DNA of 32,482 nt from Spirochaetota bacterium (lineage in GTDB: Bacteria > Spirochaetota > Spirochaetia > Treponematales > UBA12059), in the NCBI GenBank assembly GCA_022703215.1, contig JAKLEE010000006.1, positions 1 through 32,482 of the forward strand. The letters are read 5' to 3'. Each line of letters begins with the position of its first letter. Position 1 is the first letter of the stretch. A program made the translations under genes and the position numbers. Shown here in pieces: positions 4,262 through 32,482 of this stretch. The notes under the pieces are model-generated. The model did not search any database, was not told the DNA's origin, and saw nothing but the letters and a program-made list of their open reading frames with translations.

Positions 4262-4400
4262 CCGGCCCCGGCGGCTGCGCGGACAGGGGGGCGCCGCGGG
4301 CGGGCGCCGCGAGCCTGGAGGTGCGGGGGGCCGGAGGCGACGCCCCGCGTGACAAGGCGAAGCCCTTTTCTTCCCCCGCGGCTCCGCCCCCGTTCCAAGC

Positions 4401-4470
4401 GAGCTCTGTCCCCGTCTCGACCGAGCTCTGTCCCTTGCGCGGCGAGCTCTGTCCCCGTTCCGACCGAGCT
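4401..4470. repeat. Cluster of the GGGGACAGAGC repeat, minus-strand orientation
   Basis: Three copies of GAGCTCTGTCCC(C) start at 4401, 4423 and 4444, with a spacing of 21-22 bp. A fourth truncated copy (GAGCTC) is at 4465. The second copy ends in CCC, not CCCC. They lie between the divergent MFS and glutaredoxin genes, just upstream of the glutaredoxin -35 box. The region 4264-4478 otherwise shows no gene. Confidence 0.85.
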
Positions 4471-4478
4471 CGGAGGTC

Positions 4479-7092: not shown

Positions 7093-7099
7093 AAAGATC

Positions 7100-7223
7100 A
7101 CCACGGAGGCACCGAGGCACGGAGACAAGAGGGAGGAATCAAGAAGGATAGGGAAAACCGGGGTCAATCCGAGTCCCCTTTCCACTCCCGCTGCTTCCCT
7201 CCAAGTCTCCGTGCCTCCGTGGT
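7100..7223. repeat. Inverted-repeat element, CACGGAGGCACGGAG family, copy A
   Basis: Left arm 7100-7126 (ACCACGGAGGCAC then CGAGGCA then CGGAGAC); right arm 7205-7223 (GTCTCCGTGCCTCCGTGGT). The arms are complementary except for a 7-nt extra unit on the left. The middle is purine-rich then pyrimidine-rich, so the whole can fold into one long imperfect hairpin. It lies between two convergent genes and may act as a bidirectional terminator. Related elements are at 11657 and 19362. Confidence 0.85.
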
Positions 7224-7242
7224 TGACTTCCTCTGGTGACGA

Positions 7243-8211: not shown

Positions 8212-8240
8212 AGTCTAGCAGACGCGGCGGGCTCTGTCCC
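8212..8240 (-). promoter_or_regulatory. lysO promoter whose -35 lies in a repeat copy
   Basis: On the minus strand GGGACA (8240-8235), 17 bp, TAGACT (8217-8212), then 6 nt to the ATG at 8205. GGGACA is part of the first copy of the GGGGACAGAGC repeat and differs from TTGACA at two positions. Confidence 0.45.
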
Positions 8241-8283
8241 CTCCGAGGGGAGCTCTGTCCCCGCGGCGGGGAGCTCTGTCCCC
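8231..8283. repeat. Cluster of the GGGGACAGAGC repeat, three copies in minus orientation
   Basis: Copies are at 8231-8241, 8250-8262 and 8271-8283, 20-21 bp apart. On the minus strand each inner copy is preceded by complementary C-runs, e.g. CCCCTC G GAGGGG, so each unit is a G/C hairpin with an ACAGAGC foot. The cluster fills most of the gap between lysO and the next gene. Confidence 0.85.
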
Positions 8284-8311
8284 GCCGCGGCGGGCGTTTC
8301 CGCGAACCCGG

Positions 8312-9932: not shown

Positions 9933-10700
9933 ATGGTGCGGATCGACACGGAACTTCTCTCGAACCGACGCGTCGCCGAGGGCTACTTCGAGCTCCGCTT
10001 CCGTTGGCCCGCCGCGGCGGGCGCGCCAGTCCCGGGCCAGTTCCTGACGGTCCGCGCGCGGGAGGGAAGCGATCCGCTCCTGAGGCGGCCCTTCGCCTTC
10101 GCCTCCCACGACGGGACGCGCGACGAAGCGACTATCGTCATCCAGGAGCGGGGAAGCGCGACGCGCGCTCTCGCGACGCTGGAGGCGGGAGCGAAGCTCG
10201 ACCTGCTCGGCCCCCTCGGACACGGCTTCGCCTTCCCGGAACGGGGGACAGAGCCGGTGCTGGTAGCGGGCGGCATCGGCGTCGGCCCCATGCTCTTCCT
10301 CCGCGCCGCGCTGGACGCGGCCGGCGTCTCGAGCCGCTTCGTGCTCGGAGCCCGGACCGCGGCCCTGGTGCCGGAAGCCCTGCTGCCTCGCGGCGCGGGC
10401 GTGGAAGTCCGCACCGACGACGGCAGCCTCGGCGCGAAGGGCACGGCCGCGGACGCGGTGACGGCCCTTCTGCCGGAAGCCCGAGCAGCGCTCTACGCCT
10501 GCGGCCCCGCGCCCCTGATGGCGGCCCTGGACCGCATCGCCGCGGAGCGCGGCTGGCCCTATCAGGCGGCCGTCGAGGAATGGATGGCCTGCGGGGTCGG
10601 CGCGTGCATGGGCTGCGCGGTGCCGCTCAAAGGCGGCGGCTTCCTGCGCGCCTGCGCCGACGGACCCGTGCTCGACGGGAGCCTGGTAAAATGGGACTGA
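9933..10700 (+). CDS. pyrK: Dihydroorotate dehydrogenase electron-transfer subunit
   Basis: 255 residues. The order is an FAD-binding domain with RRPFAFAS, an NAD-binding domain with LVAGGIGVGPMLF, and a C-terminal [2Fe-2S] loop with Cys220, Cys225, Cys228 (EWMACGVGACMGCAVPL) and Cys241 (RACADGP). PyrK passes electrons from the dihydroorotate dehydrogenase PyrD to NAD+. It marks the class 1B enzyme, which is soluble and independent of quinones and fits anaerobic or fermentative growth. pyrD overlaps the last 10 bp. The codons for residues about 104-108 (R-G-T-E-P) contain a GGGGACAGAGCC copy (10244-10255), so the dispersed repeat, or a chance match, lies in coding sequence. Confidence 0.95.
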   Translation: MVRIDTELLSNRRVAEGYFELRFRWPAAAGAPVPGQFLTVRAREGSDPLLRRPFAFASHDGTRDEATIVIQERGSATRALATLEAGAKLDLLGPLGHGFAFPERGTEPVLVAGGIGVGPMLFLRAALDAAGVSSRFVLGARTAALVPEALLPRGAGVEVRTDDGSLGAKGTAADAVTALLPEARAALYACGPAPLMAALDRIAAERGWPYQAAVEEWMACGVGACMGCAVPLKGGGFLRACADGPVLDGSLVKWD

Positions 10701-11656: not shown

Positions 11657-11784
11657 AACCGCGGAGACGCGGAGAAGCGGAGAAGCGGAGGAGAGAACGG
11701 AGAGATGCGTGACATCGGATCAAATCCGAATCATCCATCTTCCGTTTCTCCCTCTTCCTCCCAAGCTCCGTGCCTCCGTGGTTC
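11657..11784. repeat. Inverted-repeat element, CACGGAGGCACGGAG family, copy B
   Basis: Left end GAACCGCGGAGACGCGGAG at 11655-11673, with further AAGCGGAG units to 11690. Right end GCTCCGTGCCTCCGTGGTTC at 11765-11784. The arms are complementary with a few mismatches. The middle again runs from purine-rich (GGAGAGAACGGAGAG) to pyrimidine-rich (TTTCTCCCTCTTCCTCCC), with a central GGATCAAATCC hairpin. It separates pyrD from the pst operon and ends 6 bp before the Pho box. Confidence 0.85.
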
Positions 11785-11790
11785 GCCAAT

Positions 11791-12928: not shown

Positions 12929-13858
12929 ATGCACGAAACCTTCCCGGACGCGCGGACCGGCCGCTTGAGCCTGGCGAAGCGCGCGCGGCCCGTCGAGGCC
13001 GCCATCCGCGGCCTCCTCTCCGTCTCGGCCGCCATCTCGGTGCTGACGACCCTCGGCATCGTGGTCACCCTCGGGACGGAGTCCTGGGGCTTCTTCCGCG
13101 AGGTAGGCATCCTCGAGTTCCTGGGCTCGCTCGAGTGGCAGCCGGTCATCGGCGACTTCGGCATCTGGCCCCTGTTCAACGCCACGCTGACGACGAGCTT
13201 TTTCGCGATGCTGGTGGCCCTGCCCCTCGGCCTCATGGTGGCCATCTACCTGGCGGAGTACGCGAGCGACCGGGTGCGCGAGACCCTCAAGCCCGTCCTC
13301 GAGGTGCTCGCGGGCATCCCGACCGTGGTCTACGGCTACTTCGCGCTCGCGACCGTGACGCCCTTCCTCAGATCCCTTTTGGGGACAGAGCTCGTGGGCG
13401 TCTACAACACCTTCTCGGCGGGGATCGTCATGGGCATCCTGATCCTGCCCCTCGTGAGCTCGATGTGCGAGGACGCGCTCTCCGCCGTGCCGCGTTCGCT
13501 CCGCGAGGGCGCCTACGCCATGGGCGCCACGAAGCTCGAGGTTGCCACGCAGGTGGTGGTGCCGGCGGCCTTCTCCGGCCTCGCGGCGGCCTTCATCCTC
13601 GGTCTTTCGCGCGCGGTGGGCGAGACGATGATCGTGGCGCTGGCCGCGGGCGCGGGACCGAAGTTCACCCTCAACCCCTTCGAGCCCGCGGAGACCATGA
13701 CCGGCCATATCGTCCGTATCTCGGGCGGCGACATTTCCTACGACTCCATCGACTACCGGAGCCTCTTCGCCATCGCGCTGGTGCTCTTCCTCGTCACCCT
13801 GGCCCTCAACAGCCTTTCGCGCCGCATCGTGGCGAAGCACGGGGAGGTCTACGAATGA
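12929..13858 (+). CDS. pstC: Phosphate ABC transporter permease PstC
   Basis: 309 residues with six membrane helices and the permease EAA-like loop AVPRSLREGAYAMGATKLEVATQVVVPAAFSGL, plus SRAVGETMIVALAAGAGP, both conserved in PstC. It forms the inner-membrane channel with PstA. The ATG lies 4 bp after the pstS stop. It lacks an obvious ribosome site, so translation is probably coupled. The last codons overlap pstA (ATGA). A GGGGACAGAGCTC copy of the dispersed repeat (13381-13393) is inside the gene and encodes G-T-E-L around residue 152, between membrane helices; the frame is preserved. Confidence 0.95.
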   Translation: MHETFPDARTGRLSLAKRARPVEAAIRGLLSVSAAISVLTTLGIVVTLGTESWGFFREVGILEFLGSLEWQPVIGDFGIWPLFNATLTTSFFAMLVALPLGLMVAIYLAEYASDRVRETLKPVLEVLAGIPTVVYGYFALATVTPFLRSLLGTELVGVYNTFSAGIVMGILILPLVSSMCEDALSAVPRSLREGAYAMGATKLEVATQVVVPAAFSGLAAAFILGLSRAVGETMIVALAAGAGPKFTLNPFEPAETMTGHIVRISGGDISYDSIDYRSLFAIALVLFLVTLALNSLSRRIVAKHGEVYE

Positions 13859-16615: not shown

Positions 16616-16640
16616 GGAAACACGGCCGCGTCCCGTCGGC

Positions 16641-16830
16641 GGGGACAGCGCGTCCCGGCGGAGGGACAGAGCCCGTTACGGCGTGCCGGCGGGGCTCCAC
16701 GCGTCCCGGCGGCGGGGACAGAGCCCGTCCAGCGCCCCGCGCGGGGACAGAGGCCATCGAGCCCCACCGAGGGGGACAGAGCCCGGGCGCAGCGGGCGGC
16801 TCCGCGTGTCCCGCGCGGGGACAGAGCTCG
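16641..16830. repeat. Six-copy cluster of the GGGGACAGAGC repeat between phoU and phoB
   Basis: Copies begin at 16641, 16663, 16714, 16743, 16772 and 16817, all in plus orientation and unevenly spaced (22, 51, 29, 29 and 45 bp). Several are preceded by GTCCC, e.g. CGTCCCGTCGGCGGGGACAG, so GTCCC pairs with GGGAC to form a hairpin with an AGAGCCCG foot. No gene is seen in 16616-16890. The block precedes the phoB promoter. Confidence 0.85.
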
Positions 16831-29569: not shown

Positions 29570-29616
29570 GCACGCGGACGGCGGAAAAATCAGGGGCGGG
29601 GCATGGCGCCGGTTTC

Positions 29617-29666
29617 AAGCTCTGTCCCCGATTTCCCTGTCCCCGATTTCCCTGTACCCGATTTAC
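29617..29666. repeat. Three tandem 15-bp units related to the GGGGACAGAG repeat
   Basis: CTGTCCCCGATTTCC (29622-29636), an identical unit (29637-29651) and CTGTACCCGATTTAC (29652-29666), preceded by AAGCT. The first copy includes the GCTCTGTCCCC core of the dispersed repeat. They occupy the shared upstream region between the sigma factor and the divergent gene at 29760. Confidence 0.85.
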
Positions 29667-31935: not shown

Positions 31936-32482
31936 CTAGCGGATGTCGAAGTAGCGCCGCTCGATGGCAGCCACCCGGTCCGCCGCGTCCTGCCACCAGG
32001 CACTCTCGGGGAACTCGTCGCGGACGCGCTTGTAGGCGGCATGAGCCTTTCGGATATCGCGCAGGGGACCGGGTTCCTCGTAGACGCGGCCGAGCAGGTA
32101 CCAAGGCTCGTCGCCCGAGTTCGGATAGAGCGACACGAGGCGCTCGAGGCTCCGGCGCGCATTCTCGAGGCGGCCTGCGGCCATTTCGTCGCGGGCGAAG
32201 CGGAGCAGGTCGCCGTGCGAGTCAGAGGCAGGCGCGTTGGCGGCGGCACTCGGGGAAGCCGCGGCGGGGACAGAGCCCGCAGTGGGGACAGAGCCCGCAG
32301 TGGGGACAGAGCCCGTGCTAGCGGCGCCGGGAACCACGCCCGAAGCCGCAGTGGGGACAGAGCCCGTGCTTGCGGCGCCGGGAACCACGCCCGAAGCCAC
32401 GGCGGGGACAGAGCCCGCGGCGGCGGCCGGGGGAACCACGCCCGAAGCCGCGGCGGGGACAGAGCCCGCGCTTGGAGTGACA
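31936..32482 (-). CDS. TPR-like protein with a repeat-encoded Ala/Val/Pro/Ser-rich region (cut by window edge)
   Basis: The frame is open to the right edge, so the start lies outside. The visible part has 181 codons. The C-terminal 90 residues resemble tetratricopeptide/YfiO-like units: DLLRFARDEMAAGRLENARRSLERL, YPNSGDEPWYLLGRVYEE, IRKAHAAYKRVRDEFPESAWWQ, ending AIERRYFDIR. This suggests a protein-protein interaction domain, as in envelope lipoproteins, but no signal is visible. Before it lies a low-complexity region of GSVPTA and ASGVVPGAAST units, encoded by tandem copies of the GGGGACAGAGCCCG element. The copies are spaced 18 or 51 bp, all multiples of three, so the frame stays open. Confidence 0.8.
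   Translation of the reverse strand, partial: VTPSAGSVPAAASGVVPPAAAAGSVPAVASGVVPGAASTGSVPTAASGVVPGAASTGSVPTAGSVPTAGSVPAAASPSAAANAPASDSHGDLLRFARDEMAAGRLENARRSLERLVSLYPNSGDEPWYLLGRVYEEPGPLRDIRKAHAAYKRVRDEFPESAWWQDAADRVAAIERRYFDIR
32266..32468. repeat. In-frame minisatellite built from the GGGGACAGAGCCCG repeat
   Basis: GGGGACAGAGCCCG begins at 32266, 32284, 32302, 32353, 32404 and 32455. The first three are 18 bp apart; the rest are 51 bp apart with a unit containing GGGAACCACGCCCGAAGCC. All spacings are multiples of three. The tract lies in the coding sequence of the last gene and encodes 6- and 17-residue repeats. Confidence 0.9.

Follow-up and report, generated by a model that had tools for sequence, protein, structure and literature searches.

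The window, by which we mean the whole 32,482-nucleotide stretch analysed here, ends together with contig C490 of a 2.97-Mb MAG (G000), and the contig terminates within a repeat array in the linker of a gene for a TPR protein. The following features lie at this end.

31936 to 32481, minus strand: 3' part of the TPR-protein gene, an open frame running off the end of C490, which is the end of the window
about 31936 to 32220, minus strand: encodes the TPR domain
about 32242 to 32481, minus strand: encodes the linker
32266 to 32315, plus strand: 18-bp tandem array with motif copies at 32266, 32284 and 32302
32295 to 32472, plus strand: 51-bp tandem array with motif copies at 32302, 32353, 32404 and 32455

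The C-terminal part of the protein matched the Pfam model TPR_6 with 31.2 bits, above the cut-off of 26.3, in agreement with an earlier note on this sequence that had called the protein TPR-like. Six exact copies of GGGGACAGAGCCCG start on the plus strand at 32266, 32284, 32302, 32353, 32404 and 32455, spaced 18, 18, 51, 51 and 51 bp, and the translated linker contains GSVPTA and ASGVVPGAASTGSVPTA units. The six in-frame copies, their spacings and the GSVPTA and 17-residue units described in the earlier note were thus borne out by both coordinates and translation. Tandem Repeats Finder resolved the linker into an 18-bp array of 2.8 units and a 51-bp array of 3.5 units, both within the size range of minisatellite units (about 10-60 bp in tandem). 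Pairwise identity among the three full 51-bp units is 82-92%, and the two 18-bp units do not differ.

We compared this linker with those of two MAGs of the same genus (G001 and G002) and one of a sister genus (G008). The G002 orthologue, from an independent MAG, is a continuous frame of 551 amino acids on a 109,879-base contig, and its linker carries five copies of GCTCTGTCCC with spacings of 90, 51, 39 and 45, all read in the same SVP frame. The G001 contig also ends inside the linker, which holds at least one copy, and the G008 orthologue has none. Across the orthologous linkers the copy number is therefore at least six in G000, five in an irregular arrangement in G002, at least one in G001 and zero in G008. 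Because the linkers of G000, G002 and G001 carry the word and that of G008 does not, we see the seeding within this genus, with arrays that vary from species to species. Linkers throughout the TPR family are of low complexity and rich in A, P, S and T; reading the other family members by eye, we saw no comparable word array in their linkers. The earlier proposal of a variable-length linker is upheld by these differences between species in copy number and arrangement, and the same unit number in related species, which the earlier note had named as evidence against its idea, was not seen in the compared orthologues, which differ in both number and spacing.

An array that stands at a contig end in G000, in a linker where the G001 contig ends as well, could be an artefact of assembly or binning. 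We consider this very improbable because the independent MAG G002 has a continuous 551-amino acid gene with five copies and because the frames are locked. The exact copy number in the G000 linker is unproven, and a search of the G000 assembly with the G002 domain, run without a positive control, found nothing of the upstream half of the TPR gene. An 18-bp array of units of the type GGGGACAGAGCTCGG(A/a)(T/A)C also opens another contig of this MAG (C268; L001, 11-169), and contigs seem to break at word arrays such as this one.

Copies of the linker motif also occur elsewhere in the genome. From an alignment of one copy per cluster we obtained the consensus (G/A)GGGACAGAGC followed by a weaker T, C and G; the flanks are otherwise flat, and no conserved base was found 5' of the word in this alignment. 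The dispersed unit, (R)GGGACAGAGC(T), is 12-14 bp long and non-palindromic. There are 93 exact matches to GGGGACAGAGC in the 2.97-Mb MAG and none to the reversed word, and the two same-genus genomes hold 96 and 102 copies. The word occurred at least once in 40 of the 58 genomes searched; many others had few or none. Chance or codon habit as its source is ruled out by the reversed-word control together with the use of six reading frames described below. Within the window, 21 matches were found at up to two mismatches (shuffled mean 1.27, largest 5), and the following lie outside the TPR gene.

4381 to 4471, minus strand: intergenic cluster A, three copies (13 at the syntenic place in G002, two in G001)
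8223 to 8290, minus strand: intergenic cluster B, three copies (five in G002, three in G001)
10244 to 10257, plus strand: single intragenic copy in the GTE frame, kept in G001 and one substitution away in G002
13381 to 13394, plus strand: single intragenic copy in the GTE frame, kept in G002 and one substitution away in G001
16627 to 16830, plus strand: intergenic cluster C, four copies of GGGACAGAGC (four in G002, two in G001)
29616 to 29629, minus strand: intergenic copy D, one copy (four in G002, one in G001)

Outside the TPR gene the exact 14-mer occurs in the window only at 8228, 16714 and 16772; the remaining intergenic copies are one or two bases off, mostly with CTCG or CTCC at the end. 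Intergenic and coding copies belong to one motif family, as had been claimed earlier. Beside copy D, at 29622-29664, lies a 15-bp array of about three GGGGACAGGGAAATC-like units, which are a sister variant of the motif. The stretches 7094-7232 and 11733-11788 represent a second family of dispersed repeats and match dozens of places in G001 and also some in G002 with about 70-94% identity.

Copies inside genes are common. Outside the linkers, 29 of 89 copies in the G000 regions and 48 of 164 in the G002 regions fall inside called genes, and 47 of 89 and 107 of 164 are intergenic, where non-coding sequence amounts to 11-13%; in these location counts the gene caller labelled the six linker copies of the window 'edge' and those of the G002 linker 'between genes'. 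A further 146 coding copies from regions fetched from seven relatives are spread over all six frames (48, 30, 25, 22, 13 and 8). All regions used for these coding counts had been chosen for holding the motif or a RAYT. Because the word is read in six frames, it is the DNA word that recurs and not a peptide. The spacing of neighbouring copies is divisible by three for 36 of 37 intragenic pairs (both TPR genes, those of the window and of G002, having been added by hand) versus 43 of 111 intergenic pairs. Such spacing only within genes indicates that the frames are real and that the lengths are held by selection.

The idea of a variable linker extends beyond the TPR gene. An SNF2 helicase with SSVP units has one copy in G001, two in G000 and six in G002, and its flanks align; a repeat-rich protein has six GTE units at 36 bp in G002 and three in its G000 counterpart. 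In a family-2 glycosyltransferase of G034, an 18-residue insertion with two GQS copies is absent from the 65% identical orthologue of G053. The in-frame length differences in the helicase and the glycosyltransferase are true ones. Other readings of the word are GQS at the end of an SMC-like protein, GDR in a membrane protein and ALSP at the end of a putative MtnA, the names of all three proteins coming from reading of their sequences. Nine 21-bp copies reading LPEGQSK precede the lipoprotein-like start of an MsrA-like protein in G002 (L097, 8290-9159; C1:108290-109159); this array could belong to the 5' untranslated DNA or form a new N-terminus.

An ordinary minisatellite, made by slippage in a linker and resembling the intergenic word by chance, would suit the evident tandem duplication and the A/P/S/T-rich linkers of the family. 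However, the 14-base identity with a word that has 93 exact matches against none reversed, the presence of the same word out of tandem in the G002 and G001 linkers, and its use in other frames in other genes all speak against such a chance resemblance. The frame and orthologue data already refute this reading, and we give it almost no credence.

The arrangement of the copies was compared with that of known repeat elements. A complementary (palindromic) arm within 20 nt on the 5' side was present at 1 of 253 copies, and four of five word-bearing stretches folded no better than their shuffles. Neighbouring copies in G000 and G002 are direct in 148 cases and inverted in two, and the spacings of intergenic arrays take many values from 13 bp upward. 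A classic REP, REPIN or MITE is ruled out by the lack of a palindrome, the lack of conserved flanks and the direct order. A longer conventional mobile element, of the MITE or Rickettsia type, might still insert in genes and leave words behind; two-copy in-frame insertions such as the 18 residues in the G034 glycosyltransferase, absent in G053, would fit, as would inverted pairs just upstream of three RAYTs in genus g5. Set against these are a conserved unit of just 12-14 bp with flat flanks, the 148 direct versus two inverted neighbours and the near absence of an arm (1 of 253), and we regard such an element as quite improbable.

A search of G000 with the PF01797 profile returned three genes. 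One of them, on the 9.1-kb contig C531, encodes a protein that scored 54.2 bits against PF01797 (cut-off 23) and 83.4 bits against NCBIfam NF047646 (REP-associated tyrosine transposase; cut-off 80), and ten copies of the word lie on the same contig. By eye, this predicted RAYT shows the expected features, a putative HuH motif NHYH and YLDENPV (L021), the latter being where we take the catalytic tyrosine to lie. No RAYT was found adjoining the window in G000, where the contig stops in the array. In G002 the TPR gene lies about 8 kb from the RAYT of contig C1; no G000 counterpart of this RAYT was found, and the C531 contig is not syntenic with its surroundings.

We then considered 40 proteins from many genera, of which 30 were taken as RAYT-type by reading of their sequences; eight judged IS200-type by sequence and two short frames with stops were left out of the RAYT count. 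A sense copy of the word lies within 350 bp upstream of 15 of the 30 RAYT-type proteins, mostly about 70-145 nt before the domain, and of none of the eight IS200-type proteins; L081 was scored as without an upstream copy, though only 22 bp of its upstream DNA is present. In motif-rich regions, 36 of 393 gene starts had an upstream sense copy (Fisher 9e-8 versus the RAYTs), a strict comparison because the background was drawn from regions rich in the motif. On the RAYT tree, much of which is weakly supported, the upstream-copy label is clustered, with 5 changes versus 10.2 in shuffled labels. In the flanks of 11 RAYT loci, 20 copies fall in the 300 nt upstream and one downstream, and flanking of the RAYT by two inverted REPs was not found at these loci. 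Three RAYTs of genus g5 (L193, L194 and L196) are directly preceded by a pair of inverted motif copies separated by 31-33 nt, and one of these pairs forms a long, REPIN-like hairpin. Two genomes of the same order, G042 and G056, have 28 and 21 Y1_Tnp matches, many near contig ends; these genes are perhaps an expanding IS200-like family.

Copies of the word also crowd around RAYTs over longer distances, in what we call halos. G015 contains 98 copies of RGGGACAGAGCT and none of the reversed word. The distance to one of five RAYTs is at most 10 kb for 54 of these copies, at most 20 kb for 73 and at most 50 kb for 89, against expectations of 2.6, 5.3 and 13.2; the 20-kb surroundings of the five genes make up 5.4% of the genome. 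Random points placed on these contigs never gave 73 in 2000 sets; the largest value was 63, owing to the strong clumping of the copies. Counted by cluster, 29 of 58 clusters in G002 (100 of the 102 copies being used) lie within 50 kb of three RAYTs against 4.2 expected, and 4 of 23 in G034 and 5 of 23 in G050 lie within 10 kb of one RAYT against 0.1 expected in each; binomial values for the halos treat clumped copies as independent and are too optimistic. When 9-mers were counted with no prior word, most RAYT loci yielded the GGGACAG family, and this family was absent from the 9-mer counts of five control stretches of G034.

The 3' part of the word differs by RAYT (AGC, ACC, ACA or AGG, and GGGACACTC at one RAYT of G009). 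Within G002, three RAYT loci have 27 AGC and one ACC copies, versus two AGC and 27 ACC copies at two others (Fisher 8e-13), and G022 has one RAYT with each of these two kinds of variant. RAYT halos of the variant GGGACAGACC comprise 15 and 12 copies on contigs C16 and C19 of G002 (L104 and L110), and a RAYT of the low-GC relative G009 is ringed by 20 copies of GGGACACTC (L217; C63:299130-319129). No such word was found at the RAYT loci on C11 of G002, at 2112 and 3456 kb in G034, at L215 of G009, at two of the five G008 loci or at two of G055 (L229, L230, L223 and L224 being among the wordless loci), and in G017, which has 67 copies, the profile search gave no RAYT match. Two other RAYT regions of G009 (L213 and L214) contain frequent unrelated 9-mers, ACCTGGTAC 23 times and CCTGGCACC 56 times.

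Strand use was also recorded. In G034, where GC skew places the origin near 0, a hand count gave 34 of 47 copies in the sense of the leading strand, or about 20 of 29 by cluster. This bias is weak and was discarded as an indication that insertion is coupled to the replication fork. In G015 both strands are used equally on either side of the RAYT (p 0.52), with no side bias.

The word is well kept at some of these sites. Two RAYT regions are syntenic between G015 and G010, and there the word is retained at 16 and 14 of the 19 aligned places in each, compared with 10.7% and 19.5% for other 10-mers of the same regions; the flanks are about 69-77% identical. Retention was less marked in comparisons of the window region, at 8 of 9, 9 of 13 and 6 of 13 places with backgrounds of 35%, 41% and 32%; anchoring alignments on the word inside arrays may somewhat inflate such conservation counts. 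Ten aligned places carry the word in just one of the species; at eight of them the difference is one to four substitutions with no gap, and at two it is a gap. Word sites are maintained as DNA words in some halos, through selection or biased conversion, and the data fit both; the retention in G015 and G010 suits selection on the sites just as it suits a drive.

The halos could also be functional arrays of sites bound by the RAYT, which would then be a DNA-organising or regulatory protein, or by some other protein. Selection would keep these sites, the copies in genes would be among them, and the linker array would be an incidental duplication of one. The retention in G015 and G010 relative to other 10-mers, the crowding of copies into the limited intergenic DNA of G000 and G002 and the gain of sites mostly by substitution argue for this possibility. 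However, tandem arrays of many periods with fast, species-specific turnover, the loss of same-genus coding sites by single changes and the modest conservation in the window region argue against it, and we regard it as rather unlikely.

We favour the interpretation that the linker array is a coding, tandemly grown form of a short RAYT-cognate word, produced by RAYT-linked seeding and local tandem duplication, and we think it probably correct. Many RAYTs of the order have the word at a set upstream place and further copies over about 10-50 kb on both sides. The halo copies stand in both orientations, between genes and within genes in every frame, and the variant differs among RAYTs. In this genus there are local tandem arrays, and spacings in multiples of three occur inside genes only. 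As a member of the HuH single-strand nuclease family, the RAYT would act close to its own gene and on single strands, where it may copy, convert or favour its cognate word. The word would then persist where a protein tolerates it, in linkers, loops and termini, and slippage or unequal exchange could multiply the word with its spacer. In the window the outcome would be a linker with at least six copies in a TPR protein. Set against this interpretation are the search results for G000, with no RAYT beside the window, and for G017, with no RAYT match, as well as the RAYT loci at which no such word was found. The earlier suggestion that a mobile or amplifying element seeded the linker therefore stands in part. 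A RAYT-linked, frame-locked word family agrees with it, but no conventional mobile element was found; the 12-14 bp unit, the lack of a palindrome or conserved flanks and the gain of eight of ten sites by substitution argue against one.

We also put forward, tentatively, that the RAYT-type nuclease is a local sequence drive in cis, writing or favouring its own 12-bp word on both strands around itself. As a possible consequence, which we hold just as tentatively, each RAYT would be ringed by a halo of its own word, in and between genes and in any tolerated frame, and nearby proteins would gain linkers. Among open-licence papers we found nothing like such halos.

RAYT/REP systems (REPtrons, BIMEs and REPINs) resemble the present one in having an NF047646-family RAYT, a short repeated word upstream, about 100 copies per genome and variants that go with the type of RAYT. 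REPs are described as palindromes of 20-50 nt after GTAG or a similar tetranucleotide, mostly intergenic and genome-wide (PMC8266576). The word, unlike these, is 12-14 bp long, has no palindrome, lies in halos and is often inside genes; none of the four REP features (a palindromic 20-50 nt unit, a GTAG-type tetranucleotide, extragenic position and genome-wide spread) was found for it, and REPIN-like inverted doublets were not found in G000 and G002, the inverted pairs being those upstream of the three g5 RAYTs. A RAYT has been described as always lying between two inverted REPs (PMC2817692). Clusters of REPINs in tandem are also known, and their local amplification is attributed to the host (PMC3116915; PMC8049555).

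Rickettsia palindromic elements likewise are repeats through which unrelated genes gain in-frame peptides, and those within genes are described as about 150 bp long with one conserved peptide (PMC10969869). The word differs from them in its length of about 12 bp, its six reading frames and its RAYT halos, and no 150-bp unit with a single peptide was found. Bacterial intragenic minisatellites are similar in their tandem units, here of 18 and 51 bp, with copy numbers that differ among relatives; the word differs from these in having a core that recurs in intergenic arrays and in coding arrays elsewhere whose periods differ. DNA uptake sequences and Chi-type words are short and oriented, occur in coding and non-coding DNA, are gained by substitution and kept, and are spread genome-wide. 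The likeness is that of a short oriented word, whereas the copies described here crowd around single genes.

The means by which RAYTs disperse their repeats have been called unknown (PMC8266576). Halo variants specific to individual RAYTs within one genome are a natural experiment on which part of a RAYT selects the word and over what distance it acts, and on whether insertion, conversion or selection accounts for the gain of copies. The halos also show how a DNA word, selfish or organising, can end up in the protein linkers of many unrelated genes, in any frame.
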